Positions 21,396-39,430 of a stretch of 64,000 nucleotides of DNA are shown one piece after another; position 1 is the first letter of the stretch; each line of letters starts with the position of its first letter. Origin of the DNA: Novosphingobium sp. Chol11 (lineage in GTDB: Bacteria > Pseudomonadota > Alphaproteobacteria > Sphingomonadales > Sphingomonadaceae); contig CAMDQO010000009.1 in the NCBI GenBank assembly GCA_945906105.1, forward strand, positions 1 to 64,000. Direction: 5' to 3'. The position numbers were made by a program, and so were the translations under genes. Under the pieces are notes generated by a model. It was not told the DNA's origin. It saw only the letters and a program-made list of their open reading frames with translations, and ran no database searches.

Positions 21396-21457
21396 GGGAA
21401 CCTCCTTGCAAATGTGCTGCAAGTGCTACGCCTTTGGCCGCGTGACAGCAATCCTGA

Positions 21458-21994
21458 TCAGTGGCGCGCACCGCGTTGGAACAGGCGCATGGCAAGTTCG
21501 TCGTAGCTTGGATCATTCACGAAATCCGGGAACTCCACCGCCGGCCCCGCAAGCGGTCGCCTGATTTTCATGTCATAGGTAACAACCCGCTTGGCAAAGC
21601 GCCACTTGCCGTCATCGCAGCGCCGGTAATTGTCGATATAGCGCACCGCCATCAGGTCTTCCATCTGGCCACCTGATCCATCGGGGATCAGATGATAGGC
21701 GATGGCATAGATCTCGCCGCAGCCGGTCCCGGCATCCACATCAACATCGATCAGATGATTGCAGGCATGGTGCCCGCTGTAAGGCATGTAGGGAAATGAC
21801 CGCTCGATGAAATCGCAGTATCCCTGCTGCCCGCCATCGAAGCTGTCACCATGGGTATCGGTGGCGTCCGGCGTGTAGAGATCACGCAGCAGGTCAATGT
21901 CCTTGCGGTCAATCGCGCGCGAATAGAGCAGCGCGAGGGTGCGGATTTCATCCTTGGCGATGAGCTTGGCGAGTGCCTTGGCATCGGTGGTCAT
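21458..21994 (-). CDS. SnoaL-like / NTF2-fold protein
   Basis: The 178-aa protein opens with IAKDEIRTLALLYSRAIDRKD and LLRDLYTPDATDTHGD, characteristic of the SnoaL-like group related to ring-hydroxylating dioxygenase small subunits. It is the last gene of the Rieske operon, and its ATG overlaps the sulfotransferase stop (ATGA). It could be the beta-like partner of the Rieske subunit at 23980, or a separate isomerase/dehydratase. Confidence 0.82.
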   Translation of the reverse strand: MTTDAKALAKLIAKDEIRTLALLYSRAIDRKDIDLLRDLYTPDATDTHGDSFDGGQQGYCDFIERSFPYMPYSGHHACNHLIDVDVDAGTGCGEIYAIAYHLIPDGSGGQMEDLMAVRYIDNYRRCDDGKWRFAKRVVTYDMKIRRPLAGPAVEFPDFVNDPSYDELAMRLFQRGARH

Positions 21995-23157
21995 GCAATC
22001 ATCTCCTGTTCGCGCGGGATGGCAAAGCGCTGGCGATAAGCGGCAAAGCGTTCTTCTGCCTCACCCTCTGACAGGCCGAATTGGGCGAGGGTATAGGCAT
22101 TGGTGCCGCGTTTGCCTTTGGGATTTTCACGCTGCCAGCCTGTGATCTCGGCCATGACATCATCGGGGGAGTCGATGCCAATTACCTCGTGGACTTCGCG
22201 CATTACGCGGCCCGGATCGGCGACCAGCGCGTAGTAATCAACATGGGTTACGCGGTCTGCCTGCGGCCCGGTATCGAAGGTCATGATGCGTTCTATGTGC
22301 CGCTCGATGAAGTGCAGCATCTGCATGCCGACGCGGTTTGCGTCGACGGCATCATAGCGGGTGCGCCGCAGAGTCAGCGTCATCTTGGCAATCGAGGCCA
22401 GCACCTGCACCGGATCGCGGTGCGTCATGGCAAAGCGCGCCGTGGGGTGAACCTTCAGGATCGTATCCATGAAAAGTAAGTGATTGGGGTACTTGAGCGC
22501 CCACGGTTTGGCTTCCTGCCGCCACTGGAGCAGCTGAAGCTGGCGCTTGTGGGCACGGTAAGCGGGCAGAGGATCGCAGCCCTCGAGCAGCCAATCGAAG
22601 TAGCTTGGCACGTCGAACACGTTGTGAAAACCTGCGGCAGTGGCGCCTTGTTCAAGGAATGCGTGGCATTCGTCGGACCCGTCATCATCATAGAGGTGGA
22701 GCGCTGCGAAGTTCTCAGGCTCGGCCGGACGCGTCCGGGCGCGCACTTCGCGCGCAAAAGCCTTGCGCTCCTCAACCGACTGAGGATCGACAGCGGGCGG
22801 GGGCAGGGGGACAAGACTTTGCCAAGTGCGCACCAATTGAAAGCGGCGGTCACGGTCAAACAGGTACTGGAAATAGGTCGTGCCCGAACGCGGCAGACCG
22901 CAGAGAAAAACGGGCTTTTCGATCGGTTTCTCGGCGATCTCCGGATGATCGGATATCCATTTCAGTCCGCCGATACGGTCCGCTTGCCGGATAATCAGTG
23001 CGCGCAGGGCTGCCGCTTCGCCAGCCTCGCTCAGGCAGGCGTCGTGGTTGAGGGCATCGCACAGCGCGTTCAGGTTGGCGTGGATCGCTGGCTCAGTATC
23101 GCTGAAACCGGCGCGATTTTCGGCCTCGGCGATGATTGAGACAGCGCATAGCGTCAC
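21991..23157 (-). CDS. Sulfotransferase family protein
   Basis: The 388-aa product shows the 5'-phosphosulfate loop LCGLPRSGTTYFQYLF and the 3'-phosphate-binding stretch ARFAMTHRDPVQVLASI of PAPS-dependent sulfotransferases. The GTG start overlaps the stop of the SDR upstream by 4 nt (GTGA). Sulfonation of a hydroxylated intermediate or a lipid is possible; the substrate is unknown. A sulfotransferase within a Rieske/SDR operon is uncommon, though such genes recur in sphingomonad catabolic clusters. Confidence 0.85.
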   Translation of the reverse strand: MTLCAVSIIAEAENRAGFSDTEPAIHANLNALCDALNHDACLSEAGEAAALRALIIRQADRIGGLKWISDHPEIAEKPIEKPVFLCGLPRSGTTYFQYLFDRDRRFQLVRTWQSLVPLPPPAVDPQSVEERKAFAREVRARTRPAEPENFAALHLYDDDGSDECHAFLEQGATAAGFHNVFDVPSYFDWLLEGCDPLPAYRAHKRQLQLLQWRQEAKPWALKYPNHLLFMDTILKVHPTARFAMTHRDPVQVLASIAKMTLTLRRTRYDAVDANRVGMQMLHFIERHIERIMTFDTGPQADRVTHVDYYALVADPGRVMREVHEVIGIDSPDDVMAEITGWQRENPKGKRGTNAYTLAQFGLSEGEAEERFAAYRQRFAIPREQEMIA

Positions 23158-23969
23158 CGTAACAGCGCTCCGCCATCGACTTGCATGATCTGCCCTGTCA
23201 CCCAGCTGGCCTGAGCCGAAGCGAGCCAGGCCACCAGCGCTGCGACTTCTTCCGGCGTGCCCACCGGCCTGCCGAGCAATGGCTGGCGCGCGCGCATCGA
23301 CTTGTCATAATCGCTCGAACCGACAAAGGCAGTGGCGAAGAAATTGCTATCGGGATTGAATCGGCTGCCCTTGCTGTAGGCCTCGGGATCGGCGGACATC
23401 GTGCCATAAGGGGCAACGCAGTTCACGCGGATGCCATGCTGCCCCACTTCCTTGGCGAGCACTGCAGTGAAGGAATGGACCGCGCCCTTCATCGCTGAAT
23501 AGACCGCCAACTGGTAATCGCCGACGATCCCGGCGGTGGAACCGAGGTTGATCACCGCGCCGCTCTTGCGCGCGATCATGCCGGGCAGCACGGCGTGAGT
23601 CATGGCGAGCATGGTGCGGACATTGATGTCAAAATCGCCTTGCCAGTCCGCCGGGTCATTATCGACGAACATGCCCGTGGCCGAATTGCCGCCGACATTG
23701 TTAACGAGAACTTCAATAGGGCCAAGCGCAGAGGCGGCCTCGGCAATTTGCTGGCCGGCGCCGGGTGCCAGCATATCGACGGGCAGGAACAGCGCTTCAT
23801 CAGCTCCGGCGGCAAGAGCAAGGTCCGCCACCTTCTTGCCCGCTTCAGCATCGCGCCCGGTGAAGACCAGCTTCACGCCTTCACCCGCCAGTGCCAGCGC
23901 TATCGCACGGCCGATGTTGGCGGTGCCGCCGGTGACTATGGCGACCTTTCCTTGCAGCCCCAGATCCAC
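23154..23969 (-). CDS. Short-chain dehydrogenase/reductase
   Basis: GTG 23969, preceded by GGGAG, gives 271 aa starting VDLGLQGKVAIVTGG. The cofactor loop is TGGTANIGRAI, followed by NNVGGN and the catalytic YSAMK. The C-terminus WVTGQIMQVDGG is typical for classical SDRs. It starts 11 nt after the Rieske gene and overlaps the sulfotransferase. It could oxidise a dihydrodiol or alcohol made by the Rieske oxygenase. Confidence 0.88.
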   Translation of the reverse strand: MDLGLQGKVAIVTGGTANIGRAIALALAGEGVKLVFTGRDAEAGKKVADLALAAGADEALFLPVDMLAPGAGQQIAEAASALGPIEVLVNNVGGNSATGMFVDNDPADWQGDFDINVRTMLAMTHAVLPGMIARKSGAVINLGSTAGIVGDYQLAVYSAMKGAVHSFTAVLAKEVGQHGIRVNCVAPYGTMSADPEAYSKGSRFNPDSNFFATAFVGSSDYDKSMRARQPLLGRPVGTPEEVAALVAWLASAQASWVTGQIMQVDGGALLR

Positions 23970-23979
23970 GCAAATCTCC

Positions 23980-25170
23980 CTAAGTAAGGCCTTGTTCGAC
24001 CTTGTATTCTTCAACCGCTTTGGCAACCATCATGTAAAGGTGGCGGCAGAGCACTTCCTGTTCCTGAAAATAGATATGCTCCAGCGCGCCACTGGCCAAA
24101 CCGCGTTGGCCGGCCTGAATGACCGCGACATCTTCTGAGTGGACATCGCGGGTCACTGCCAGAGTGAACTCGCGGGCATAGCGGGTGCCGGGGGTCTGAT
24201 CATCGTTGATCCAGTAGATCCGGATCACCCCGCGCGATTTTTCCGGGCCAATCGGATAGACGGTGTGCGAGAAATTGTTGCCCGTTGATCCCAGCATGAA
24301 GAAGCTGGGGAACACAGCGAAATAGGCGCGGTTGAAGGGGTTTTCCGGCACATCGCCGCGCAACAGCGCCTTGGCCCCCATGCCAAAGCCGAGCATCTGC
24401 GTTGCCGTCATCTGGCTGGCGCTATCGGGGTTGGTCCAGATCGTCTGGGTACGGTGCGGATCGTGGAGTTCCTGCGCCGCCGGATAGCCAAACGGATTGG
24501 CCGCACTGAAGGTGGCCTTGCCGGTGTTCGGATGAATGAAGCGCAGGTGATAGTTTTCCTGAAAGTTATCGTAAGTCAGCTTCCAGTTGGCATCGATCTC
24601 ATAGACATATTCGGAGAAATTGGTGGCATGGGCGCAGGGCAAGTGGCTCATGCCTTCAGCCAGTGGCCCGAGAAATTCGACGAGGCTCTGTTTCGGCGCC
24701 TTGTCAAAGTTGATGAAAATTAGCCCGCCGTGCACTTCGCAGGCGACGCGGGGCAGGGCGCAGTCCTTTTTTTCCAGGCCGAACTTCTCGAAGTCCGGGG
24801 CGGAGAGCAGGTTGCCGTCATTGCCGAAGGTCCACATATGATAACGGCAGGAAAAGGTGTTGCGCTTGCCCTCGGTTTCATCGGTTAGTTGCGTACCTCG
24901 GTGCGTGCAGACATTGTGAAACGCGCGTATCTCACCATCCTTGCCGCGTGAGATCAGCAGTGATGCGCGGGCAAATTCAAATTCACGGCGGATGAAGCTG
25001 CCGGGTTCAGGCAGCTCGCAGACATGGCCTGCCGGGAACCATGTGCGCAGGAAGATTGCCTGCCGTTCAAGCTCAAACCATTCGGGATCATAATAGGCCT
25101 TGGCCGGAATTGGTGCATTGCCAAGATCGGGTATGGGAGCCGGTTCAAAGCCGCTGGTCTGCACGTTCAT
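23980..25170 (-). CDS. Rieske-type aromatic ring-hydroxylating oxygenase, alpha subunit
   Basis: The 396-aa protein has a Rieske [2Fe-2S] site C-x-H-x17-C-x2-H (CTH near residue 88, CRYH after it) and the mononuclear iron ligands in NFQENYHLRFIHP. Such oxygenases need an electron-transfer partner and sometimes a small subunit; no ferredoxin or reductase is seen nearby, so a remote partner must serve. It is the first gene of the operon 25170-21458 behind a palindromic promoter at 25225-25253. Substrates in this subgroup range from aromatics to steroids and N-methyl compounds. Confidence 0.9.
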   Translation of the reverse strand: MNVQTSGFEPAPIPDLGNAPIPAKAYYDPEWFELERQAIFLRTWFPAGHVCELPEPGSFIRREFEFARASLLISRGKDGEIRAFHNVCTHRGTQLTDETEGKRNTFSCRYHMWTFGNDGNLLSAPDFEKFGLEKKDCALPRVACEVHGGLIFINFDKAPKQSLVEFLGPLAEGMSHLPCAHATNFSEYVYEIDANWKLTYDNFQENYHLRFIHPNTGKATFSAANPFGYPAAQELHDPHRTQTIWTNPDSASQMTATQMLGFGMGAKALLRGDVPENPFNRAYFAVFPSFFMLGSTGNNFSHTVYPIGPEKSRGVIRIYWINDDQTPGTRYAREFTLAVTRDVHSEDVAVIQAGQRGLASGALEHIYFQEQEVLCRHLYMMVAKAVEEYKVEQGLT

Positions 25171-25224
25171 GGTTGACGCACCTTTCCTGTGATTGCTGAT
25201 CTCAGGTGGGGATTAACGCAGTGC

Positions 25225-25253
25225 TGTATAAATTACAACAGACCTGTTGTAAA
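25225..25253 (-). promoter_or_regulatory. Promoter with embedded palindromic operator for the Rieske operon
   Basis: Read on the minus strand, TTTACA (25253-25248) and TATACA (25230-25225) are separated by exactly 17 bp. Between and overlapping the -35 lies TTACAACAG-ac-CTGTTGTAA (25233-25252), a perfect 9-bp inverted repeat. It overlaps the last codons of the upstream isomerase gene. Such placement suits repression by a MarR or TetR dimer. Confidence 0.6.
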
Positions 25254-26048
25254 AGTGCGCGTCGCCACTACTACTGTGCTCACACGTTCGTGCGGATCTA
25301 CGCCGGCCAGATCGCGTGATTGTTGGGGAACTTCAATGCCAAGTGGCAAATCGCGGGGCAGTGCGGCGATGAATTCGGCCAGAGGCAGATCACCGTCACC
25401 GGGGGCGAGTCGTTCACACTTGGCCTCTTCGCCATAGCTGGCAAAGGCTGACTCCCAAGGCACGTCGCAGATCTGCACATGGCCGATCCGCGCCGGATCG
25501 AACGCCTGCAATTCGGCGATAGTGCCGCCGCTGCGGAAGAAGTGCATGGCATCGATAAGCACCCCCGCATCCCCATTTCCGCTAGCCTCGACACAGGCGA
25601 ACGCGGCGGCCAATGTTCCAATCGGCATGGCGGGCATATATTCGATTGTCGGGCGCATACCGCGCTCGCTGGCCATGGCGGCGAAGTGGGCGAACTGATC
25701 GTGCGCGCGCATAGTATCGGGATCGATGCTGACCATATTGGCGCGCTCGGCCCCAAGTTCGGCGAGCAGATCGAGGTCATGGGCGCTATCAGCGATTTCC
25801 ACCGATGGACGGATCAGAAAACCCTCACCCAGCATCACTGAAACGCTGCGCTCCGAGAGCGCTGTCTTTACCGCCCGGTGAAGTGCGGCATCATCACGCA
25901 TCGACCAGCGTAAGGCGCTTTCCGGTACGAGCAGGATCGGGCTGAGCGCCAGACCGATCCGGCTAACTCCCAGGTCGGCAGCCAGATGCACAAAAGCAAC
26001 CGGGTCCATGCCGTGACCGGTGATGAATTCGATGCCGATGCGGTCCAT
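25233..26048 (-). CDS. Sugar phosphate isomerase/epimerase family (TIM barrel) protein
   Basis: The 271-aa product has the AP-endonuclease-family-2 fold: GIEFITGHGMDP at the start, PTIEYMPAM with a metal-binding Glu, GVLIDAMHFFRSGG and HVQICDVP with metal-ligand His/Asp, and GIEVP near the end. This fold covers isomerases, epimerases, inosose and dehydroshikimate dehydratases. No substrate can be named. It lies upstream of the Rieske gene on the same strand, 62 bp away, but has the operon promoter inside its end. Confidence 0.82.
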   Translation of the reverse strand: MDRIGIEFITGHGMDPVAFVHLAADLGVSRIGLALSPILLVPESALRWSMRDDAALHRAVKTALSERSVSVMLGEGFLIRPSVEIADSAHDLDLLAELGAERANMVSIDPDTMRAHDQFAHFAAMASERGMRPTIEYMPAMPIGTLAAAFACVEASGNGDAGVLIDAMHFFRSGGTIAELQAFDPARIGHVQICDVPWESAFASYGEEAKCERLAPGDGDLPLAEFIAALPRDLPLGIEVPQQSRDLAGVDPHERVSTVVVATRTFTTGLL

Positions 26049-26131: not shown

Positions 26132-26662
26132 TCACTCCTGCGGCGCAGATGTATTAACGCGAAGATCGCGCAGGATACGCGCCGCAAGGCGAACCTCATC
26201 CGGGCTATAGGCGGATAATGCCTTGGTCAGCATATTTGCCAAGCCATCGCGAATTTCATCATGGACCTTCTCGCCAAGTTTGGTGAGCGCCAATTCACTG
26301 CGGCGGCGGTCAGTTGCGCCAGGACGGCTTTCGATCAGACCTGCCTCGGTCAGCCGCGCCAGTTCTGCCGAGATCAGACTGCGCCCGATGTGAAAAACAT
26401 TGCTGAGCTCATGCGGATAGACGATGCCTGCCGAAATCAGATTGAGCATCCATGCGCCGCGCGGCCCCAGTGAATAACGTTCGGTAATCTCGCGCGTGAC
26501 CACAAACAATGCGCGCGGGGCAAAGGACAGACCCTGACACAGGAAGCCGAAATCGTCCCAGTCGAGCGGAGTGCCGGGTTCGCGTTCGCCGGTCAGGAAC
26601 TGTGTCGCACCGATCCGCCGAAAAATAGCATCGCGGACGGGATCGTCCTTTTCGTGCGACAT
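26132..26662 (-). CDS. MarR-family transcriptional regulator
   Basis: The 176-aa product has a winged helix with VYPHELSNVFHIGRSLISAELARL as recognition region and the DRRRSELALTKLGEK wing typical of MarR. ATG 26662 overlaps the stop of the HiPIP gene (TGATG). It is the last gene of the eight-gene minus-strand operon that begins at 33108, so it probably regulates that operon; the palindrome at 33157-33180 is a candidate site. Confidence 0.85.
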   Translation of the reverse strand: MSHEKDDPVRDAIFRRIGATQFLTGEREPGTPLDWDDFGFLCQGLSFAPRALFVVTREITERYSLGPRGAWMLNLISAGIVYPHELSNVFHIGRSLISAELARLTEAGLIESRPGATDRRRSELALTKLGEKVHDEIRDGLANMLTKALSAYSPDEVRLAARILRDLRVNTSAPQE

Positions 26663-26964
26663 CAACCGGCCTTGGCGGCGAAGGATGTGCAGACCGAACC
26701 TGCGCCAACCGGGCCGCCACTAAGCAATTGGCAGGTGCCACAACCCGCGGCGCCTGCCTTGAAGAAAGCACAGAGATCGCAGCGCTTCTTGGGATCGGTT
26801 GATACGGCCACGAAACCCAACGAGCGGCGCATGCTCTGCTGGCTGAGTGGCAGGTTGACCGGATCGTAACAGGCAGGAGTCTCGGCCATCGCCCGACCAG
26901 CTGCCACTGCGGCAAAAGGGGCTGCGACGGCCAGTGACAAGAACTTACGGCGGGTGGGGATCAT
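26662..26964 (-). CDS. High-potential iron-sulfur protein (HiPIP), Tat-exported
   Basis: The 100-aa precursor begins with a twin-arginine signal (TRRKFLSLAVAAPFAAVAAG, cleavage after AMA). The mature part has Cys62-x2-Cys65, Cys78 in TCQLL and Cys92 in SVCTSF, the four ligands of a HiPIP [4Fe-4S] cluster. An extra Cys75 lies three residues before the third ligand. HiPIPs are small periplasmic one-electron carriers. Folding with cofactor before Tat export fits. It overlaps the preceding VOC gene by 20 nt and likely accepts or donates electrons for the other exported proteins of this operon. Confidence 0.87.
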   Translation of the reverse strand: MIPTRRKFLSLAVAAPFAAVAAGRAMAETPACYDPVNLPLSQQSMRRSLGFVAVSTDPKKRCDLCAFFKAGAAGCGTCQLLSGGPVGAGSVCTSFAAKAG

Positions 26965-27463
26965 TCAATTTCTCCGGTCGTGCGGCGGATTCAACGAGTT
27001 CGAGGCGGTAACCATCGGGATCAGCAGCCATAGCCATGCGGTAACCCATTGCAACCTCTCGGACATCACCGACCGTGTAGCCCATAGACCGCAGCCGGGC
27101 CACCACCTCTGCTATGCTGCGGACACGCATCACCAGCCGATCAAATCCGGTGCCGTGCGTTACTCTTTTCGGCGCGGTCTTGGTGCTATTGCCCAACAGG
27201 ATAAAAGCAGGTTGGCGCGGATCGCTGCCAAAGCCGACCATGTACTCACGCCGGTTTTCCGGCCCCATCTGCATCTGCAGCTTCAGACCAAGCCCCTCGG
27301 TATAGAAACGCAGCGATTTGCCGATATCGGTGACGTGCAGTGTCGGCCCGATCATAGCCACCGCAGCAGGTGGCAACGGCGCTGTCGGTGCCGGTGCTTC
27401 TGCCAGCGCCGGTGTGCTGATCAGTGCGCCAGCAAGAAGAAAAAGCCTCAAATCGCTCCTCAC
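26945..27463 (-). CDS. VOC (glyoxalase/dioxygenase fold) protein with signal peptide
   Basis: The 172-aa product has an N-terminal signal (LRLFLLAGALISTPALAEA) and then one VOC domain: GPTLHVTDIGKSLRFYTEGLG, FDRLVMRVRS and the C-terminal DPDGYRLELVE. The H in LHVTD and E in LELVE are metal-ligand positions. VOC enzymes include glyoxalase I, extradiol dioxygenases and epimerases. Export to the periplasm is unusual for this family. GTG 27463 overlaps the DUF1552 stop by 4 nt. Confidence 0.82.
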   Translation of the reverse strand: MRSDLRLFLLAGALISTPALAEAPAPTAPLPPAAVAMIGPTLHVTDIGKSLRFYTEGLGLKLQMQMGPENRREYMVGFGSDPRQPAFILLGNSTKTAPKRVTHGTGFDRLVMRVRSIAEVVARLRSMGYTVGDVREVAMGYRMAMAADPDGYRLELVESAARPEKLNDPHPP

Positions 27464-28815
27464 GCCATGATCTCTGTGATCGTGCGATTAGTCTCCATGC
27501 TTTTGGTCCCCCAGCGATCCACAGGCACACCCATCGCTTGCTGGATAGTCAGTCCGACACGGCTGACCGGGGTGCCGATGCCATCGACATAGATGCCCGA
27601 TTTCACCCGGCCGCCAGCTGTGCCCGCCAGCATCATCGGGATATTGTCGATGGTGTGAAATTTGGCGAACTCGGTTTCGGAATGGGCGAGTACAAGCGTG
27701 TTATCGAGCAAGGTGCGGTTGCCTTCCTTCACCTTGTCGAGCGCGCCGACGAAATAGACCCAGGCCTCCATGATGCGGGTCAGGAAGTAGGTTGCTTCGG
27801 GTTGATAGCCGAGGCGGTTATCCAGCACTTCCTCATGCGTCAGCTGGTGGTGCGTGATCGTGCTGCCGATCCGCGTCAGGCTGGAAGCCCCGTTGTTGAA
27901 CATCATGTTGAACACCCGTGTCTGATCGCAGGCGAGCGCCATGACCAGCATGTCGGTCATGAATTCATGATTACGCATGACATTTTCGATCTCGGCATTG
28001 ACTGGCAATTCAGGGATCTTGCGCGGGACATTGCAGGCCTGAAGTGGCTCGGGCTTGGTCAGCTGGACATCGAGCTGATTTTCCAACTGCCGGATCGAAG
28101 TAAAATACTGGTCAAGCTTCTGTTTGTCCTCAGTTCCTACCGCAGCCAGCAGCGACTGGCGTTGTTCCGATACCCCCGAAAGCACAGAGCGCCGCGCCAT
28201 GGTCACAGGATCGGGGGTAAAGGTGCCGCTGTTCGGGTCCTGAAAACCCAGGCCGAAAACACGTTGGTACAGCCCGGCTGCTGAAACTTCCGAAGGATTG
28301 AGGTTACCGCCGCCGCGACCGGAAAGCGAGTTTCGCGCGTCACCGGTTGAAGACATTTCGAGGCTGGAAAAGCGCGAGCGGCTGCCGATCAGATCGGCAA
28401 TGGTCACATCGAAGCTTTCTCCGGGAAGCCCGCGCTCAGCCGTCAGCGCGCGGCCAGTGCGAATGGCGGGGCCACCGCTGCCATGCGGCAGGTTTGGCGC
28501 CCCATCAAGCGGCACTGAGAAGTTGCCCAATACGCTGATCTTTGACTGGAACGCCTTGATCGGTTCAAGTTCAGGCTTGAGGTCATAATTGGGCCCGGTC
28601 TTGCTCGGGAACCAGCGGGTGGGATTAACTCCCAGCCCCCAGAACCAGGTGCCAAAGCGCACCGGCATTGGCGCGCCGCCTGCTGCTCCACCAGTCGCGG
28701 CAAGCGCCTCGCCATTGCCATCAAGAAAGGCGTTGAGCAGTGGCACCCCAACCACGACACCGGCACCATTGAGCATCCCTTTGAGGGCGGTTCTGCGGGA
28801 TAGATCGTAGGCCAT
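27460..28815 (-). CDS. DUF1552 domain protein, Tat-exported
   Basis: The 451-aa product starts at ATG 28815 behind AGGAG, with a Tat signal (SRRTALKGMLNGAGVVVG). Downstream are DUF1552 features: RFGTWFWGLGVNPTRWFP, ISVLGNFSVPL, LPGESFDVTIADLIG and the late THHQLTHE and LAHSETEFAKFHTID segments, rich in His and Asp. DUF1552 proteins are distantly like sulfatase/DUF1501 proteins and nearly always adjoin DUF1592-family genes, as here; no activity is established. Exported as a folded protein, it may carry a metal site. Confidence 0.88.
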   Translation of the reverse strand: MAYDLSRRTALKGMLNGAGVVVGVPLLNAFLDGNGEALAATGGAAGGAPMPVRFGTWFWGLGVNPTRWFPSKTGPNYDLKPELEPIKAFQSKISVLGNFSVPLDGAPNLPHGSGGPAIRTGRALTAERGLPGESFDVTIADLIGSRSRFSSLEMSSTGDARNSLSGRGGGNLNPSEVSAAGLYQRVFGLGFQDPNSGTFTPDPVTMARRSVLSGVSEQRQSLLAAVGTEDKQKLDQYFTSIRQLENQLDVQLTKPEPLQACNVPRKIPELPVNAEIENVMRNHEFMTDMLVMALACDQTRVFNMMFNNGASSLTRIGSTITHHQLTHEEVLDNRLGYQPEATYFLTRIMEAWVYFVGALDKVKEGNRTLLDNTLVLAHSETEFAKFHTIDNIPMMLAGTAGGRVKSGIYVDGIGTPVSRVGLTIQQAMGVPVDRWGTKSMETNRTITEIMA

Positions 28816-28831
28816 CGGAATTCTCCTCAGC

Positions 28832-30550
28832 TCATGGATTTTTGGCGCGCAGGTCGGCAAAGCTGACTTGCGATTCGATAACAGGCTTGCTTGCCCGCAC
28901 ACGCCAGGCTTCGGGCATGATGGCGACCTGCAGGAACAGTGAGCGGATGCCATAACCATTGCTGCCAAAGCTCTTGGTCAGCGCTTCAATCAGCGCGGCA
29001 TTTTCGCTGGGGCGGCCCGTAGCAAATTCAAAGGCACGCGAGGCGACGCACATCGGGGTTGAAGGACTATCGGCGAGCGCTTTGCCGAGGCCTGCACCAC
29101 CGAAAAAGTCGCTGCCGTCCATCGAACCGGCTATATTGATCGGTGTGTCGTTTTCAGTAGCCCGAAATGCGCCAATGCCATCAAAACGCTCAAGACTTAG
29201 GCCGGCGGGGTCGGTGATGCGGTGGCAGCCGGAGCAGGTCGGGTCAGTGGCGTGTTCACTAAGCCGGATGCGCGCCGTCGGCATGGCCTTGTTTGCGGTG
29301 TCTTGAACAGCAGTGAAGTTCACATTGCCGGGTGGATTGGGCACCGGCTGGCACATCAGCACCTCTCGGATGGCGCGGCCGCGCAGGGTCGGCGAACTGC
29401 GGCCCGAATGCGAATAGAGCGCAAGGAATCCGGCTTGGCCAAGCAGCCCTGCGCGATCATCCTTGGGCGAGAACTGATAATCCACCCAGCCTTTCGATTT
29501 GCTCACCGGCACCTGATAAACCGGGCCAAGAACGCGCGTCATGAATGTGCGGTTGGTGGTGAACAGCTGACGGTAATCACCGTTCTGCACCAGCAAGTGA
29601 TCGGTGATCGTACGCAACGTTTGTTCGGGCAGAGCGGCGGCGACTTCCTGATTGAAATAGGGATAGACAACCGGATCCTTGGCCAGCTCGTCGAACTTTT
29701 CGAACAGCAGCATATCTGAGAAAAAAGCGCGTAGCCCCTGCTCGAAACGGGGCGATTTCACCATGGATTCGGCCACGGTGCTTAGTTTGGCCTGATCGGT
29801 GAGTGCTCCGATTTCAGCCGCATGCAGCAGCGCTTCATTCGGCGTGGTATTCCATAGCATGAAACTCAGCCGGGAAGCGCGGGAATAATTGTCCAGTCGC
29901 AGCGATCCTGGGCTGGCCGGGTCAGCCTCGGCGCGCTCGATGACATAGAGAAAATTCGGCGAAACCAGCATCGCCGCCAAAGACAGCTCGAGCCCCTTGG
30001 CGAACGAGCCTGATCGGGTGGCGGCTCGTCCCGCAAGCCCGGTAAAAAACGCCTGTTCGCTCGGTGTCAGAGGGCGACGAAACAGGTAGCGCCCCAGCGG
30101 CGCGAGAGTGCCGCCAGCACAGGCATCATCAGCCTTGGTGGCATCAAGAGGTGCGCAAGGCGTGAACTGGCTGCGATGCTTTTCATCAAACACATGAGAG
30201 GCGATAACGCGCGCAATCGCATCGAACTGTTCAATACCCGCCGGAGAGATCGCTGCATCACTCGCCCCGCTGGAGATCAGCTCATGGACTGGGCGTACAA
30301 TCGGTTCAAACCGACCGGCAACGCGGATATCAGGGCCAAACACATCGGCGATGATGTGCCGGTATTGCGATTCCGAAATCCGCCGCATGGCCACAATCTG
30401 ACCGGGCTGGGCCTGCGCTGCAGAAGCGCTGAGCGATTGGGCTGCGATCGGCGCGGGCTGTAAGGCCGTGTAGCCGAATGCGGCAACTGGCAAGGCGGTG
30501 AGTGCAAGCATCAGGGCTTTGCTTTTCAGCCCAGAGTTTTTCAGGATCAT
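28832..30550 (-). CDS. DUF1592/DUF1588/DUF1585 family exported protein with CxxCH motif
   Basis: The 572-aa precursor starts at ATG 30550 and has a signal segment (ALMLALTALPVAAFGYTAL). It then has regions matching the DUF1587 / DUF1595 (LGRYLFRRPLTPSEQAFF) / DUF1592 (SRASRLSFMLWNTTPNEALL) / DUF1588 (AGFLALYSHSGRSSPTLRG) / DUF1585 series first noted in Planctomycetes. CSGCH near residue 439 could bind a c-type haem. Planctomycete relatives usually carry an extra N-terminal cytochrome c domain, which is missing here. It starts 4 nt inside the previous gene and is paired with DUF1552. Confidence 0.87.
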   Translation of the reverse strand: MILKNSGLKSKALMLALTALPVAAFGYTALQPAPIAAQSLSASAAQAQPGQIVAMRRISESQYRHIIADVFGPDIRVAGRFEPIVRPVHELISSGASDAAISPAGIEQFDAIARVIASHVFDEKHRSQFTPCAPLDATKADDACAGGTLAPLGRYLFRRPLTPSEQAFFTGLAGRAATRSGSFAKGLELSLAAMLVSPNFLYVIERAEADPASPGSLRLDNYSRASRLSFMLWNTTPNEALLHAAEIGALTDQAKLSTVAESMVKSPRFEQGLRAFFSDMLLFEKFDELAKDPVVYPYFNQEVAAALPEQTLRTITDHLLVQNGDYRQLFTTNRTFMTRVLGPVYQVPVSKSKGWVDYQFSPKDDRAGLLGQAGFLALYSHSGRSSPTLRGRAIREVLMCQPVPNPPGNVNFTAVQDTANKAMPTARIRLSEHATDPTCSGCHRITDPAGLSLERFDGIGAFRATENDTPINIAGSMDGSDFFGGAGLGKALADSPSTPMCVASRAFEFATGRPSENAALIEALTKSFGSNGYGIRSLFLQVAIMPEAWRVRASKPVIESQVSFADLRAKNP

Positions 30551-31755
30551 CGCTTGGTCATCCTCTCGGCTGCTGGCACATCGTTGACGAAGGCTGGAAT
30601 GGCTCTGATCTGCATGGCGGACGAAACACCGCTGCACTTGCCCGTTTTGGGATCTCGGATACCATCGGCATATTTGCGCAAGGTCTGAAGATACTGCGCG
30701 CAGTCTATGCCCGCCACCAGCGCCGATCCGACGCCGCCGATGCCAGGGCTCTGGATCACGTCAAACACCGGCTTGTAACCGCCCAGCATACCACGCAAGC
30801 TGCCATCAGGCTGGAATGTCAGCTGCAGTTTTCCACGGCGATAGTCAAACTTGGTACGATTTCCGCGAATGTCGCGTGAGCCGCCTTGGCCCCAAGTTTG
30901 TGCCAACATGATGTCTTGTGGATCGGTGGTCAGTACGCCATTTTCGATGCGGCCATGCAACACATTGCGATGGCGTGGCAGCTTGGTCGAAGCCGAGAAG
31001 CTGGCTCCGCGCAAGAAGTGCCCCTTGCTGTCCTGCACCGGACGGTCAGGCGTGTTGGCATAGATTACCTCAACGCTATCATCATGCTGCAGGCTATCAA
31101 CACCCTTGAGCAGGATGACCTGCGTCCACTCACCCGAGGCATGGAACTGGCGGGTGCCGATGGCCTGATCACCCGCGATGCCATCAACGCCGCGCCATTC
31201 GAGCGTGCAGCCCATCACCCGATATTCCTGATTGTCGATCCCGGTCACGCCAGCGGGGGAGGCAAATTCCTCATGGGCGCAAGTATCAACGCTTTTCCCG
31301 CCGTCCAGATCAAGGCCATGCGAAAATTTGCTCTGCACCGTGCGCATATCAGCACGGGTAAACATGTCCGGCTGAGAGCAGATATTGGTGTTGTTCGAGC
31401 CAAAAAGCGAAGCTTGCCATTTGGCCACCAGCTCCTCCTCATTTTCCTTCAGCATCAGCCGGGTTCTTTCGGCTTCCGGAAGCGCGGCCAGATATTCGTC
31501 GCGGACTTTGCGGACTGTGCCTTCGGGGCAGGCATCCTTGCCCTGAATGACCGGTGGGATAAAGTCCTCGACGACAAAGCCCATAATGCCATCAGCGGGG
31601 GGATTGGGCAGCTTGGTCACTGCCTGCTGTCCGATAGCTGGCGAACCAAAATCGGCAACCCCGGTCATCGGACCTACCGCCAGAAGTGCGCCGCCAAGAG
31701 GGAGAAAGCAGGCGGTGCGTATCAGATTACGCTTCCTTGCTTTTGCATAGGTCAT
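30547..31755 (-). CDS. Secreted protein of unknown function in the DUF1552/DUF1592 operon
   Basis: I do not recognise this family. The 402-aa product from ATG 31755 has a clear signal segment (IRTACFLPLGGALLAVGPMTGVA). The rest has several cysteines (CPEGT, NICSQPDM, DTCAHEEF, MGCTLEW, DCAQYL, GKCSG) and aromatic-rich soluble blocks such as TKFDYRRGKLQLTFQPDGSL; no CxxCH. An ATG at 31794, overlapping the upstream stop, is the alternative start and would add 13 residues. Place and export suggest it works with the DUF1592 and DUF1552 proteins, perhaps as substrate-binding or scaffold component. Confidence 0.75.
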   Translation of the reverse strand: MTYAKARKRNLIRTACFLPLGGALLAVGPMTGVADFGSPAIGQQAVTKLPNPPADGIMGFVVEDFIPPVIQGKDACPEGTVRKVRDEYLAALPEAERTRLMLKENEEELVAKWQASLFGSNNTNICSQPDMFTRADMRTVQSKFSHGLDLDGGKSVDTCAHEEFASPAGVTGIDNQEYRVMGCTLEWRGVDGIAGDQAIGTRQFHASGEWTQVILLKGVDSLQHDDSVEVIYANTPDRPVQDSKGHFLRGASFSASTKLPRHRNVLHGRIENGVLTTDPQDIMLAQTWGQGGSRDIRGNRTKFDYRRGKLQLTFQPDGSLRGMLGGYKPVFDVIQSPGIGGVGSALVAGIDCAQYLQTLRKYADGIRDPKTGKCSGVSSAMQIRAIPAFVNDVPAAERMTKR

Positions 31756-31790
31756 CCCGATATTCCCGCTTTCTTGCGTTATTATAGTAC

Positions 31791-32636
31791 TCATGGTCGC
31801 AACACCGTGCCACCAGCAGGAACGCTAGTCGGATCATCCCTCTGGCTGACGAACACCGCCTTGCCGCGATAGTGCCATTGCGGCGCATCGGGCGCAGTGT
31901 TGATCTGCCAATCACCGATGGCCCGGCTTGCCATGCCACCGGTAAACGGCACCCAGCCATCGCAGATTGCGTCGCACTGGCCGGTGAACAGCACGCGGCC
32001 ATCCTTGTCAGTCAGCGCATAAGCACCACTGGTGAATAGCGCTGCGACGTTACTCGGCGCAGTCAGCACAGGGACCGGGGGGACGAATTTCAGCGTGTTC
32101 CATGTGCCACCCTCAGCACCATCCAGATCATTGGAGCCGCGCTTGCTGCCCTTGCGGACAAAAACCATATGCCAGCCCTTATAGACCCATTGCGGCCCAG
32201 CAGCGCCGTCAATGATGGTCCAGTCAGGGGCTGCTTGCGGCGAGACAAAACCGGCGGGCAGGCCGGGAGGCGGCGTGCCTGGAGCAACGCGTCGCTCCCC
32301 AAATCCGCGCGGGAACATGATGTTGGGCTTGGCATCCTTGGGCGCGAGCAAGGGTTCCCATTTGGCCGCGCACTCAGCCTGACAGTATTTCGCTGGGTCG
32401 GGATTCCAGCGGAGCAGGGTGCGCATGTCCATGCCGTAAAGCGTCAGTCCGCGCTTGTTGGCATAGACGTTGTATGCGCTGCTTTTGGCGATCTTGACGC
32501 CCTGCGGATATTCACTTGCCGTGGCGGGCGGGATGGGCAGGTCTGCGGGCTGTGCAGTTGCTGGCGTCATGGCCGAACCGATCAGGCTGAGCGCTGGTAC
32601 TGCCATGAGCCAGAATTGTGATCGTGTTACCGCCAT
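31791..32636 (-). CDS. Exported COG4315-type (Yx[FWY]xxD repeat) protein
   Basis: The 281-aa precursor has a signal (FWLMAVPALSLIGSAMTPATA). Two related units follow: one with LTLYGMDM, CQAECAAKWEP and QWVYKGWHMVFV, and one with RVLFTGQCDAICDGWVPF and QWHYRGKAVFV. This is the pattern of the COG4315 secreted repeat (short beta units with a C-x3-C-x2-W core), whose role is unknown; some members neighbour cytochromes and electron-transfer genes. GAGGA precedes ATG 32636. It begins 13 nt after the cytochrome gene. Confidence 0.78.
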   Translation of the reverse strand: MAVTRSQFWLMAVPALSLIGSAMTPATAQPADLPIPPATASEYPQGVKIAKSSAYNVYANKRGLTLYGMDMRTLLRWNPDPAKYCQAECAAKWEPLLAPKDAKPNIMFPRGFGERRVAPGTPPPGLPAGFVSPQAAPDWTIIDGAAGPQWVYKGWHMVFVRKGSKRGSNDLDGAEGGTWNTLKFVPPVPVLTAPSNVAALFTSGAYALTDKDGRVLFTGQCDAICDGWVPFTGGMASRAIGDWQINTAPDAPQWHYRGKAVFVSQRDDPTSVPAGGTVLRP

Positions 32637-32649
32637 GCCCATTTCCTCA

Positions 32650-33108
32650 TCAGTTATCCGGCGTCCGAAAAGTGTCGTGGCAACCTTTGCAAGTCGCACC
32701 GAGCTTGCGCGATTCTGCCTGAATCATCGCCACATTGCCTGAACCTGCCGCGCGCTGGAACGCCAAGGCTTGCTTGCCAAAAGCATCCTGAGCCAGTTTG
32801 AACTTTGCCGCCTGCTTCCAGATTTCCGGCTTGGCTTTGGTCTTGGCTCCCGATTCCGGGCCGCTGCCCGCCGGGAACCAGAGATAAATCTGCTTCGATG
32901 AATTGACGATTTGCCGCGCGGCTATCTGGATCAACATGGTCTGCGGGCTGGGTGATCGCATCGCATCATTCACCGTTTTGAATGATGCCCCAAGCTCGCG
33001 AAATTCAGCAATCCGCATACGCACGCTATCAGCCGGAGCTGCCAGCAGGGGTGATGCGGCAAGGGTGCATCCAAGGAAAACTGTCAGGCAGGATTTCAGG
33101 CGAAGCAA
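32650..33108 (-). CDS. Class II cytochrome c (cytochrome c' type), exported
   Basis: The 152-aa precursor has a signal peptide (CLTVFLGCTLAASPLLA) followed by a four-helix-bundle type sequence and a single CKGCH haem motif at residues 140-144, close to the C-terminus, with GATCKGCHDTFR as in class II cytochromes. This is a periplasmic redox or gas-binding protein. It is the first gene of the eight-gene operon running to 26132, with a palindrome at 33157-33180 upstream. Confidence 0.9.
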   Translation of the reverse strand: MLRLKSCLTVFLGCTLAASPLLAAPADSVRMRIAEFRELGASFKTVNDAMRSPSPQTMLIQIAARQIVNSSKQIYLWFPAGSGPESGAKTKAKPEIWKQAAKFKLAQDAFGKQALAFQRAAGSGNVAMIQAESRKLGATCKGCHDTFRTPDN

Positions 33109-33156
33109 GTGTCATTCTCCCAATCAGGCAGCTCTATCACGACGGCTTTATCGAAT

Positions 33157-33180
33157 GATAGTTCAAAAGTTGAACTTATC
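33157..33180. promoter_or_regulatory. Palindromic operator candidate upstream of the cytochrome c operon
   Basis: GTTCAA-aag-TTGAAC at 33161-33175 is flanked by GATA and TTATC, giving nearly 10-bp arms (GATAGTTCAA / TTGAACTTATC with one inserted T). It lies 49-72 bp before the cytochrome start codon, in the 114-bp gap after the MFS gene. It is a plausible site for the MarR protein encoded at the end of the operon. Confidence 0.45.
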
Positions 33181-33222
33181 AAGTGCTGACTTTAAGCTGA
33201 CAGCTGATTCTCGGAACAAGAC

Positions 33223-34523: not shown

Positions 34524-35441
34524 CTAATCGAGCTTGGCCAGCACCCGTTCGCCGAAATCTCGGGCCAGGTCACACCACTCTGCGCGGCTGTCGACGTAAA
34601 TGCTCGCGCCTGCGCCGTGGGCACCCTTGGCGCGGTAGCCTGAGATCACGTCGATGGCTTCCTGCGGGCTGTAGCCGGGCTTGGCGGTGAACACGCTGGA
34701 CAGGATCACCTCTGGCGGCGCATCGCGGCCGACCTTGGCGCAGTGATCGTGCATATAGGCGAGCGCTGCGTCGATATCTTCTTCATCGGCCAGCGATACG
34801 GTCCGCGCCGTGGCGGTAACAGCAGCGGGAGCGAAGAAGGGGTGCCAGGCATCGCCCAGTTCCACCGCACGGCGGATGGCGCGGCGGCTGTTGCCACCGA
34901 TCAGCAGTGGCGGATGAGGACTCTGCACCGGGCGGGGCAGCATCCGATTGCCCGGGGCGGAATAGCCGGTGCCTTCAAAGGTGAAATCTTCACCGGTCCA
35001 GGCCAGTTTCATCGCCTTCAGATATTCATCCATGATGTCATTGCGGGCATCGAAATCAGCGCCCAGCGCCTTGTATTCGGCCTTGAGATAGCCCGCACCC
35101 AGCCCGAGTACGACGCGCCCTTTGGAAAAGACGTCAAGCGTCGCCACGGCGCGCGCGGTGATGAAGGGGTTGCGATAGGGCAGGACAAGGATGTTGGTCT
35201 GCAACCGCAGCGTGGTCGTCAATGCAGCGATCAGCGAGAGCATGACGAAGGGCTCCTGCGCATAGTGCCCACCGTTATCGAGCCAGCGCGAACCGGGCAC
35301 CGGATGATCGGTGACGCAGCCCGCAGAAAAGCCTGCTACCTCTGCTGTCTGGCAGATCTCTGTCACCGCTTCCATCGAGATGAACTCTTCGGGAAGGTGG
35401 ATGTGATCGAATGGTAGGCTGACACTGACCGGGAAACGCAT
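34524..35441 (-). CDS. Luciferase-like (LLM) F420-dependent oxidoreductase
   Basis: The 305-aa TIM-barrel protein has VTDHPVP, the TNILVLPYRNPFITARAVATLD... pattern (blocks ILVLPYRNP and ATLDVFSKGRVVLGLGAGYL) and PLLIGGNSRRAIRRAVELGDAW, matching the LLM class F420-dependent oxidoreductases, subgroup TIGR03619-like. Such enzymes use reduced F420 for hydride transfer. F420 synthesis genes lie beside it, which supports F420 rather than FMN. It is 36 nt downstream of the SDR and may form one transcript with npdG, cofC and the SDR. Confidence 0.87.
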   Translation of the reverse strand: MRFPVSVSLPFDHIHLPEEFISMEAVTEICQTAEVAGFSAGCVTDHPVPGSRWLDNGGHYAQEPFVMLSLIAALTTTLRLQTNILVLPYRNPFITARAVATLDVFSKGRVVLGLGAGYLKAEYKALGADFDARNDIMDEYLKAMKLAWTGEDFTFEGTGYSAPGNRMLPRPVQSPHPPLLIGGNSRRAIRRAVELGDAWHPFFAPAAVTATARTVSLADEEDIDAALAYMHDHCAKVGRDAPPEVILSSVFTAKPGYSPQEAIDVISGYRAKGAHGAGASIYVDSRAEWCDLARDFGERVLAKLD

Positions 35442-35477
35442 GATATTCTCTCCGCAGAGCTGCCTTATCGTGGCACC

Positions 35478-36332
35478 CTATCTGGGCATTTCGGGTGGCA
35501 GCACCCACTTGCCACTATCGCTGCGAATCCAGCCGCCGCTAGCCCATGTGCCGCCATCAACAGGAATGATCGTCCCGGTGATGTAGGACGCCAGTGGCGA
35601 GGCGAGGAAGGCTATCAGATTGCCGCATTCGCTGTCGATGCCCGCGCGGCCAGCAGGAATGCGGCGACGCAGCACATCCTGCTGCTCTGGCGTACGCTTG
35701 GGCCAGCTACTTTCATCGACCGGTCCAGTGAAGTTACCCTGCGTGCCGGGTGTCAGAGTGAAGTCCGGCGCGATGGCGTTGACGCGAATACCGTGTTCGG
35801 AAAGCTCGACCGCCAGCGTGCGGGTCAGGTTGTTGATCCCCGCCTTGCAGGCCGCATAGACGGCATAGCCGGGAGCAGCCCGCGCGCCTTCGATGGAGGT
35901 GACATTGATGATCGCACCGCCGCCCGCTGCGATCATATGCGGGATGGCACTGGAGGTAGCAGCAAGATTGCTGATCAGATTGAGATCGATATGCCGCCGC
36001 CAGTTCTTCTCGGCAAGATCGGTAAAAGCGCGCCAGGTGACACCGCCGGCATTATTGACCAGCACATCGAGCCGCCCGAAATGCGCTGCCGCTTGTTCAA
36101 CCGCATCGCGCACAAAATCGGCGTCCATGACATTGCCGGTGATACCCAGAGCGCGGCGACCCATAGCGGTGATCTGCTCGACAACTTCATCGCAGCGTTC
36201 AGGGATTACATCGATCACTGCCACATCCGCGCCCGACGCCGCCAGCGCCAGCGCCGCCGAACGGCCAATCCCGCCACCGCCGCCGGTGATAAGCGCAGTC
36301 TTTCCGGTCAGGTCGATATCGGGCTTTTCCAT
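35478..36332 (-). CDS. Short-chain dehydrogenase/reductase in the F420 gene cluster
   Basis: ATG 36332 behind AAGGA gives 284 aa; the longer frame would overlap cofC. Motifs are ITGGGGGIGRSAALAL, NNAGGV and the catalytic YAACK, with the closing YITGTIIPVDGGTWASGGW. It is only 4 nt downstream of cofC and 36 nt upstream of the LLM gene, so its substrate is probably shared with the F420-type oxidoreductase. Confidence 0.88.
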   Translation of the reverse strand: MEKPDIDLTGKTALITGGGGGIGRSAALALAASGADVAVIDVIPERCDEVVEQITAMGRRALGITGNVMDADFVRDAVEQAAAHFGRLDVLVNNAGGVTWRAFTDLAEKNWRRHIDLNLISNLAATSSAIPHMIAAGGGAIINVTSIEGARAAPGYAVYAACKAGINNLTRTLAVELSEHGIRVNAIAPDFTLTPGTQGNFTGPVDESSWPKRTPEQQDVLRRRIPAGRAGIDSECGNLIAFLASPLASYITGTIIPVDGGTWASGGWIRSDSGKWVLPPEMPR

Positions 36333-36336
36333 GACG

Positions 36337-36933
36337 CTATCCTTGATGCCGTGAGAGCAGGCCTTGCGCATCGGCCAAATCGGCAGGTTCATCTATATCG
36401 CGTGCAAGGCCGGGGGTAACAATCTCGCGCAGGGTAAGGCCGTTCCGCGCCGCCTCCGCCTTGTGCCTCGCGCAACTGCCGACTCCATAGCCATAGGCGA
36501 AGTCCAGCGCGGCGGGGACTGGCAGCGAAAGTGCATTGGTTCCGGTGCCATGCCGATCAGGGGCAATCGCTGCTTCGCCCGAGGGTAGGGCGATCAACAT
36601 TTCAACATCTGCCGAAGTTATCAGGGGCAAGTCTCCCGCCAGAGATATCACTCGCGTAGCCCCTCGCTTTGCCAGCTCGGCGCGGGCGAAAGTCAGCGCT
36701 GCGTTGAGTCCGCCTTCGGGTTCGGGCAGCAGTTCGATAATTGCCGTCAACTCCAGCGGCAATGTGCCAACCAGCACGACACCAGCAACGCCATCAGCAC
36801 TGCGGGCCGCCGTGATGGCCGTTTCCAGCATGGCTGCTGCCAGAGCATTGCGTTCGGTTTGGCTCATCACGCTCGCGAGTCTGCCCTTCGCCTCAGGTGG
36901 TGCCTTGGCTGGGATGACGATCCAGCAGGTCAC
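36337..36933 (-). CDS. cofC: 2-phospholactate (or phosphoenolpyruvate / 3-phosphoglycerate) guanylyltransferase CofC/FbiD
   Basis: The 198-aa nucleotidyltransferase starts IVIPAKAPPEAKGRLA, the CofC form of the nucleotide-binding loop, with ISLAGDLPLITSADVE holding the metal-binding Asp and GTGTNALSLP following. It makes the activated GPP-type intermediate that CofD uses in F420 assembly. Which phospho-acid it prefers (phospholactate, PEP or 3-phosphoglycerate) cannot be read by eye. GTG 36933 shares one base with the npdG stop. Confidence 0.88.
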   Translation of the reverse strand: MTCWIVIPAKAPPEAKGRLASVMSQTERNALAAAMLETAITAARSADGVAGVVLVGTLPLELTAIIELLPEPEGGLNAALTFARAELAKRGATRVISLAGDLPLITSADVEMLIALPSGEAAIAPDRHGTGTNALSLPVPAALDFAYGYGVGSCARHKAEAARNGLTLREIVTPGLARDIDEPADLADAQGLLSRHQG

Positions 36934-37580
36934 TAGATAGCCCGCGCCTTGGTCAGCCCGGTAAACCGAATACCCGCGCCGTCTGCGCCATAGGTCTTGT
37001 TCATATAGATGAGGATCGAGGTCAGCGCTTCTGCCGCTGCCGAATTGACCAGCGCACCGCCTGAAAGCCCGCGCAGATCCATGTCCTCACACAGCCCGAC
37101 GACAACGCCGCGTGCTTCGACATCGTCGGAGAACACCAGCACGTCGCAATCGATCTTCTCGTCATGAATCAGTTTGTGCGCTGCGACCGAATGGAAGGCG
37201 GAAACCAGCCGAACACCTTCGCCCAGATGTGCCAGTGCCTCCACCGCCGCGCTGCCCGTCTCAGGAAGTTGCACGCGCATCACCTTGGGCGGTACCAGCG
37301 GCACGGTAGTATCAACGACGATGGCCGAACCGACATGATCCTTGATCTGTGCGAGCGTTCCGGCGTGGGCGGAATAGGGCACGGTAACGATCACCACATC
37401 CTTCCCGCTTGCCGCATCGCTGTTGGTTGCACCGCCTGCCGCGCCAACTTCCTGAGCGGCGATTTCTGCGCTCTCAGCCGAGCGAGAGCCGATAGTCACA
37501 CTATGTCCGGCCTTGGCCAGGCGGCGTGCGATAGCCTTACCTAATGCACCGGTCCCGCCGATTACGCCGATAGCTGCCAT
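36933..37580 (-). CDS. npdG: F420-dependent NADP reductase (F420:NADPH oxidoreductase)
   Basis: The 215-aa protein has IGVIGGTGALGKAIARRLA with the Rossmann loop, TIGSR for NADP phosphate binding, VIVTVPYSAH, and ALVNSAAAEALTSILIYMNKTYG at the C-terminus, as in archaeal and actinobacterial Fno/NpdG enzymes. It moves hydride between NADPH and F420 and so supplies reduced F420. It is the first gene of the minus-strand cof unit, divergent from cofE. Confidence 0.9.
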   Translation of the reverse strand: MAAIGVIGGTGALGKAIARRLAKAGHSVTIGSRSAESAEIAAQEVGAAGGATNSDAASGKDVVIVTVPYSAHAGTLAQIKDHVGSAIVVDTTVPLVPPKVMRVQLPETGSAAVEALAHLGEGVRLVSAFHSVAAHKLIHDEKIDCDVLVFSDDVEARGVVVGLCEDMDLRGLSGGALVNSAAAEALTSILIYMNKTYGADGAGIRFTGLTKARAI

Positions 37581-37632
37581 GTCAATTAGCTCCTGAAACT
37601 TGCCTGATTTGTGTTTGCCGTTGCGGATAGTG

Positions 37633-37644
37633 GTGCCATGGCAC
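37633..37644. promoter_or_regulatory. Palindrome between divergent npdG and cofE
   Basis: GTGCCATGGCAC is a perfect 12-bp palindrome, extended by TAG/CTA with a one-base offset. It lies in the 119-bp divergent promoter region, about 53 bp from the npdG start and 56 bp before the cofE start; CATAAT at 37655-37660 is a possible -10 for cofE. A 14-codon leader frame (37659-37703) ends with ATGA overlapping the cofE start. Confidence 0.45.
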
Positions 37645-37699
37645 TAGGCAACCCCATAATGCAACGCCCGCTATTCATCACAGCGGCGGACTGGACCTC

Positions 37700-39426: not shown

Positions 39427-39430
39427 TCAA

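Follow-up and report, generated by a model that had tools for sequence, protein, structure and literature searches.

The eight minus-strand genes at 26132–33108 of the window, the 64,000-nucleotide stretch of Novosphingobium sp. Chol11 DNA analyzed here, are well supported by sequence comparison as a candidate single functional unit, consisting of an exported core (C4315, U415, DUF1592 and DUF1552) and carriers that vary among clades (cytochrome c′, HiPIP and often a b561-type cytochrome). We give an even chance to the reading that this unit is an exported metallo-haem oxidoreductase system acting outside the cytoplasm and attached to catabolic loci, some of them beside steroid-type genes. The redox part of this reading is likely, its evidence lying in the haem and carrier genes and not in DUF1552. 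To our knowledge, DUF1552 and DUF1592 proteins, which were named from planctomycetes, have no assigned activity.

The operon begins with an exported class II cytochrome c′ with a TTG start (32650–33108), recognized by PF01322 (83.1 bits, cut-off 26.5) and by solved cytochromes c′ (E 2.7e-14); it matches the class II profile and has a C-terminal CxxCH, conserved in 31/31 rows (in the row counts for CxxCH, and in those given below for the Y-x-[FWY]-x-x-D motif and for histidines, the window is counted two times and a number of duplicates remain). Downstream lie C4315, a COG4315-like secreted repeat protein with CxxxC motifs (31791–32642); U415, an exported protein (30547–31794); a DUF1592-type protein with one haem c motif (CxxCH) and the domains PSD5-PSD4-PSCyt3-PSD2, all four above the Pfam cut-offs (28832–30550); a DUF1552 (HXXSHH) protein with a Tat-type signal (27460–28815; PF07586, 170.3 bits, cut-off 30); an exported VOC/glyoxalase-fold protein (26945–27463; PF00903, 45.5 bits); a HiPIP with a Tat-type signal (26662–26964); and a MarR-family regulator (26132–26665; PF12802, 27.8 bits, cut-off 27). 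The HiPIP matches the solved protein 3h31 (E 8.6e-6) with its CxxC and later cysteines in register, though its Pfam score of 21.0 bits is 1 bit below the cut-off of 22. Export signals were assigned by reading the sequence alone: a Tat arginine pair in DUF1552 and HiPIP, and Sec-like signals in the other five exported proteins. From the second gene onward the intergenic gaps are −4, −4, +16, −4, −20 and −4 nt, and C4315 most likely starts at ATG 32642, 7 nt past the cytochrome stop. The initial annotation had given the same eight genes in this order, strand and position, no more than 16 nt apart; this was confirmed, four of the gaps being 4-nt overlaps, and its family names hold. C4315 is classed only as a divergent relative of COG4315/Lipoprotein_15: 34 of 46 aligned members match PF03640, but the window protein itself has no match to PF03640 or any other Pfam family.

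To examine how far these genes travel together, we used DUF1552 similarity to collect loci in 298 genomes belonging to the same taxonomic family, of which 16 gave a match, in contigs of named genomes (78 loci) and in plasmids (15 records); the named set kept 80 of 143 relatives, 78 of them distinct, and under-samples distant clades. Partners were tallied by profile (hidden Markov model) searches on six-frame open reading frames, on the same strand and within 6.5 kb, the gene caller having missed DUF1552 in 11 loci. Duplicates (L056, L057 and L067, in our numbering of loci) were removed before the clade tally and short loci repeating others (L001–L019) were omitted; near-identical strains, such as L052/L054 and L053/L055, are non-independent. 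Among the close relatives (at least 69% identity to the window protein; 24 loci with at least 5.5 kb on both flanks, window included), U415, DUF1592 and C4315 accompany DUF1552 in all 24, cytochrome c′ in 21, HiPIP in 19, VOC in 13, b561 in 12 and MarR in 10. In the middle clade (n = 32), DUF1592 is present in 32, U415 in 31, C4315 in 19, cytochrome c′ and b561 in 7 each, a CHRD protein in 6 and HiPIP in 3. The five distant-clade loci (L031–L035) all hold DUF1592 and have neither U415 nor C4315, with cytochrome c′ and b561 together in four; they also encode an exported protein whose sequence looks ankyrin-repeat-like. The scarcity of cytochrome c′ and HiPIP in the middle clade marks both as clade-specific partners.

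Gene order differs among relatives, several Sphingobium loci being reshuffled to HiPIP-b561-c′-C4315-U415-DUF1592-DUF1552, which argues that the association is more than mere local conservation. The block U415-DUF1592-DUF1552-C4315 occurs twice in tandem in L085, L092 and L099. The initial annotation had proposed that clusters lacking the cytochrome, HiPIP and COG4315 genes would speak against a single system; in close relatives all three persist, even where the order is reshuffled. Its inclusion of the cytochrome and the HiPIP as members stands for close relatives and mostly fails for the middle clade. L085, L092 and L099 additionally hold CHRD-domain and PQQ (pyrroloquinoline quinone)-dehydrogenase-type genes, and PQQ dehydrogenase or CHRD-domain genes lie near some other loci on either strand. 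One metagenome-assembled genome labeled Candidatus Marinimicrobia (RH-23may17-447; L061, L074, L081, L088 and L112) carries seven or more copies of DUF1552, which points to an expansion of paralogues.

Across the 298 genomes, U415 occurs in just those 11 that also give a strong DUF1552 match (E below 1e-80; Fisher p 3e-20), and C4315 in nine, eight of them with DUF1552 and G240 the sole exception; since both profiles were built partly from these loci, in genomes later searched, the telling result is their absence elsewhere. HiPIP gave eight matches, seven of them strong, and all seven strong ones lie inside DUF1552 clusters. Cytochrome c′ is broader (62/298) and includes all 11 genomes, G172 having no copy in its cluster.

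The DUF1552 AlphaFold2 model (80 sequences; predicted local distance difference test score (pLDDT) 87.9) adopts the fold shared by alkaline phosphatases, sulfatases and nucleotide pyrophosphatases/phosphodiesterases (NPPs), with VIA Z 16.9 to PafA (root-mean-square deviation 3.8 over 267 residues), 489 of 821 chains at VIA Z of at least 8, and a Foldseek E of 3.8e-4. H111 is present in 92/92 rows, H323 and H327 in 91/92 and H387 in 89/92, the remainder being gaps and never substitutions; Glu or Asp occupies position 380 in 84 of the 92 rows, and the HxxSHH-type motif reads HHQLTHEE at 322–329. H111 precedes T120-G121 by nine residues, a distance matching that of the nucleophile Thr in NPPs. 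As judged by motif spacing, the protein would differ from the superfamily in carrying a His in place of the Thr/Ser/Cys nucleophile and in lacking the usual Asp after strand 1 (53–58). Topology would put the four histidines at the sheet's catalytic end, and we infer a metal site rich in His, with ordinary phosphatase chemistry lost. The Tat arginines R7 and R8 are invariant in 80 rows, which fits a cofactor loaded before export. The electron-donating role that the initial annotation had inferred for DUF1552 is not supported as stated: the protein is not a recognizable redox enzyme, its model showing an alkaline-phosphatase-superfamily fold and no known redox fold. A plain dehydrogenase was rejected on the fold, and a canonical sulfatase because no C/S-x-P-x-R occurs at the nucleophile helix 111–121. 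Profiles of DUF1552, U415 and DUF1592 matched no PDB sequence at E 1; at E 10, DUF1501 gave none and DUF1552 only dynein-type chance rows.

The haem motif of DUF1592 is conserved in 94/95 rows, with the lone exception clipped by the end of the fetched stretch, rendering plausible the electron transfer previously proposed for this protein. Its C-terminal part resembles proteins adjoining DUF1501 (hhalign E 3.6e-5), which in L115–L118 and L120 we take to be DUF1800, suggesting that the haem-bearing pair and the DUF1501/DUF1800 pair may share a design. The two pairs are alike in adjacency (DUF1501 by PF07394 search, DUF1800 a presumed identity) and in an invariant His with the same His-x9-Gly spacing (H116 and G126 in DUF1501; H111 and G121 in DUF1552), but the DUF1552–DUF1501 profile match is marginal (p 0.017, probability 2.7%). 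The window's own genome contains a DUF1501 gene at L117 (G000:C5:3899-4891), next to a gene that is presumably DUF1800.

No Pfam family matched any of the 73 U415 members, and the U415 model (pLDDT 87.4) has no clear fold match in the PDB (Foldseek best E 0.018, VIA best Z 7.9); assignment to a specific barrel family (avidin, TbpB, lipocalins) was rejected, with scores at background level, and only a barrel-like description was retained. C4315 has invariant Y75, C93, C97, W147, Q157 and W158, the paired cysteines forming the CxxxC. The Y-x-[FWY]-x-x-D motif of COG4315/Lipoprotein_15 was not seen on reading the window protein and is likewise missing from 30/65 aligned rows, and the C4315 profile returned a single chance-level row from PDB sequences at E 1 (E 0.85).

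The b561-type cytochrome (PF01292) is absent from the window operon. Adjacent cytochrome c′ and b561 genes in relatives resemble known c′/b561 pairs and occur in loci of all three clades, including 7/32 in the middle clade, whereas the window operon has c′ only and the genome's pair is located on another contig (G000:C22:40368-41449). PQQ or flavin dehydrogenases with c-type cytochromes, periplasmic dehydrogenase systems, follow the same logic of an exported enzyme plus a haem c carrier, but the Pfam scan of the eight genes turned up no enzyme of the PQQ, flavin or molybdenum type. A literature search for HiPIP with Novosphingobium gave no match; the few papers matched for DUF1552 or DUF1592 carry neither name in title or abstract, and a search on PSD4 listed, among its matches, the human gene PSD4 only. 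The pair itself is found in its usual form, with both families above their cut-offs and DUF1592 near DUF1552 in every full-flank locus of the three clades; it differs here in being extended by U415, C4315 and redox carriers.

Upstream of the first gene, a promoter-like match on the minus strand (TTGATA-16-TATCAT, 33155–33182; 10/12 promoter positions) has its spacer filled by a perfect palindrome, AGTTCAA-CTT-TTGAACT (33160–33176), a predicted MarR operator. The palindrome is the only match in the window at up to three mismatches, about one being expected by chance at that tolerance, and the promoter scan of the window gave six matches versus 4.9 expected by chance. Similar layouts precede the operon in L020, L024, L036, L044, L046 and L064, with variants in others. 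Among close relatives, palindrome scores of at least 11/14 occur in 8/13 MarR-linked and 3/17 MarR-less loci (p 0.0007 on scores), in a set of related, non-independent loci whose 17 MarR-less members still include the duplicates L056 and L057. A combined operator-promoter pattern, written after the sites had been seen, matches 11 times over 3.5 million strand-bases, every time upstream of this operon; the sites fall in ten loci, of which nine are MarR-linked. In L048, a rearranged locus, two copies (4104 and 6134) stand before the cytochrome gene and before the C4315 gene. MarR control of the operon, as suggested in the initial annotation, is plausible from this recurrence of the palindrome mostly at MarR-linked loci.

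We propose that the histidines of DUF1552 coordinate a metal inserted ahead of Tat export, and that this protein and DUF1592 would work jointly on a catabolic substrate located outside the cytoplasm, with the barrel-like U415 and with C4315 binding the substrate or holding the complex together. Electrons released through the DUF1592 haem could then reach cytochrome c′ or HiPIP, which would hand them to the respiratory chain or to a membrane cytochrome of the b561 type; the product might enter the cell to be used by linked Rieske, short-chain dehydrogenase (SDR) and MFS proteins, and MarR may keep the promoter repressed as long as neither substrate nor product is sensed. Of the periplasmic oxidation or dehydrogenation system in the initial annotation, the redox part is kept on the strength of the haem motif and carrier genes; dehydrogenation itself would be speculative, and DUF1552 is not supported as a recognizable redox enzyme. 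A more specific version, in which DUF1552 is a phosphatase fold turned metal redox enzyme (nucleophile and one metal ligand lost, the four histidines forming a novel mononuclear site for Fe, Cu or Zn), DUF1592 its dedicated electron-transfer subunit and U415 the presenter of a hydrophobic polycyclic substrate outside the cytoplasm, seems to us rather doubtful; we know of no redox member of the alkaline phosphatase superfamily.

Several observations weigh against an exported redox system under MarR control. The fold of DUF1552 is hydrolase-like, and its four histidines are brought together by fold topology and motif spacing alone. Most middle-clade loci have no electron carriers and 13/32 no C4315, and the five genomes with weak DUF1552 matches all have no U415. 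Cytochromes c′ often bind gases instead of carrying electrons, and the roles of VOC, U415 and C4315 are guesses. Five of the 13 MarR-linked loci score below 11/14 for the palindrome, one of these having no upstream DNA, and three loci with no linked MarR gene score 11 or 12.

One alternative is a hydrolase or binding complex built by the four core proteins and using the alkaline-phosphatase fold of DUF1552, with cytochrome c′, HiPIP and VOC as a separate stress module (gas or superoxide) that shares the operon. The phosphatase/sulfatase-like fold, the missing middle-clade carriers and the exported Cu/Zn superoxide dismutase and sulfotransferase in the window cluster all favor it, but the nucleophile would be replaced by His with no sulfatase-like motif at 111–121, DUF1592 itself bears a haem motif, and cytochrome c′/b561 recurs in all three clades; we consider this arrangement unlikely. 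Less probable still is envelope protection from oxidants, in which cytochrome c′, b561 and superoxide dismutase would handle superoxide or nitric oxide and the DUF pair would be a haem peroxidase-like scavenger. An exported superoxide dismutase is indeed linked in the window, L020, L036 and L064, and b561-type cytochromes in half of the close relatives, but the dismutase link is confined to that subgroup, and the patchy spread (16/298 genomes) and varied neighborhoods fit specialized metabolism better than general defense. That the exported genes were assembled by chance or hitch-hiking, with no single system, is highly improbable: gene neighborhoods outside the module do vary widely, but the profile and synteny counts argue otherwise, as do the loci in which the whole core block is doubled in tandem.

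A further alternative concerns the substrate of the module, which would be a steroid-type or other polycyclic molecule encountered outside the cytoplasm; it is tentative, at about the level of the hydrolase complex. On Sphingobium herbicidovorans pMSHV, the U415-DUF1592-DUF1552-c′-b561 genes adjoin proteins that NCBIfam matches best to HsaA and HsaC, but these matches fall below the curated cut-offs (397.8 of 450 and 269.4 of 450 bits), and the HsaA cut-off was exceeded in none of the 298 genomes. HsaA-like proteins of at least 380 bits, a line drawn after the list was seen, occur in 5/11 strong-DUF1552 genomes versus 15/287 others (p 0.0003); the enrichment is weaker at E 1e-60 (6/11 versus 56/287; p 0.013). 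The bile-salt strain Chol11 has two copies, and copies lie on large plasmids in 11 Sphingobium records with names beginning Tom. These plasmids belong to tomato-root or tomatine-soil isolates, TomTYG65, TomTYG72, TomTYG74 and TomMM15 being among the tomatine degraders of PMC10653915. The passages searched of that paper (no "cytochrome" in its main text) and of PMC12175502 (no "cytochrome" or "DUF") say nothing on these genes. The best HsaA relative of the window genome reaches only 307 bits, the window cluster showed no steroid signature and other loci stand beside unrelated genes, leaving a steroid substrate for the window copy unsupported; a polycyclic or aromatic plant-type substrate is a guess.

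The minus-strand run continues past MarR through 20865–26048 with no gap above 83 nt, indicating that the transcript may exceed eight genes; the cluster may thus be longer than initially annotated. After an 83-nt gap comes a TIM-barrel isomerase-like protein (PF01261; 25233–26048), in the same position in L020 and L036 and possibly on the same transcript, followed by a Rieske oxygenase alpha subunit (PF00848/PF00355; 23980–25170; linked in L020, L024, L036 and L064), an SDR (23154–23957, the Pfam-scanned stretch, whose true start may be upstream; linked in L024, L036 and L064) and a sulfotransferase-family protein (PF13469, 112 bits; 21991–23157; linked in L020 and L064). The run also includes a SnoaL gene, and its far end is the exported Cu/Zn superoxide dismutase (PF00080, 114.1 bits; 20865–21395; linked in L020, L036 and L064). 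The sulfotransferase-family gene stands near that of DUF1552, a protein with a sulfatase fold. On the other side of the operon, an F420 gene set at 34524–41767 encodes a CofC-like protein (36340–36861), an F420-dependent NADP oxidoreductase, CofD and an FbiC-like radical SAM protein, with a luciferase-like enzyme gene adjoining; part of this set is conserved alongside the exported module in L020, L036 and L064. Overall, the window copy is linked with the Rieske oxygenase, SDR, sulfotransferase, superoxide dismutase, an MFS transporter and the F420 set, a neighborhood partly common to these three loci.

This compact, regulated-looking sphingomonad module sets DUF1552 and DUF1592 beside a haem protein and a pair of soluble carriers. 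It brings to light U415, a protein family that Pfam does not match, and perhaps a novel role for a well-known hydrolase fold. With some relatives that are culturable degraders of tomatine or bile salts, the function of the family would be directly testable by knockout and spectroscopy.

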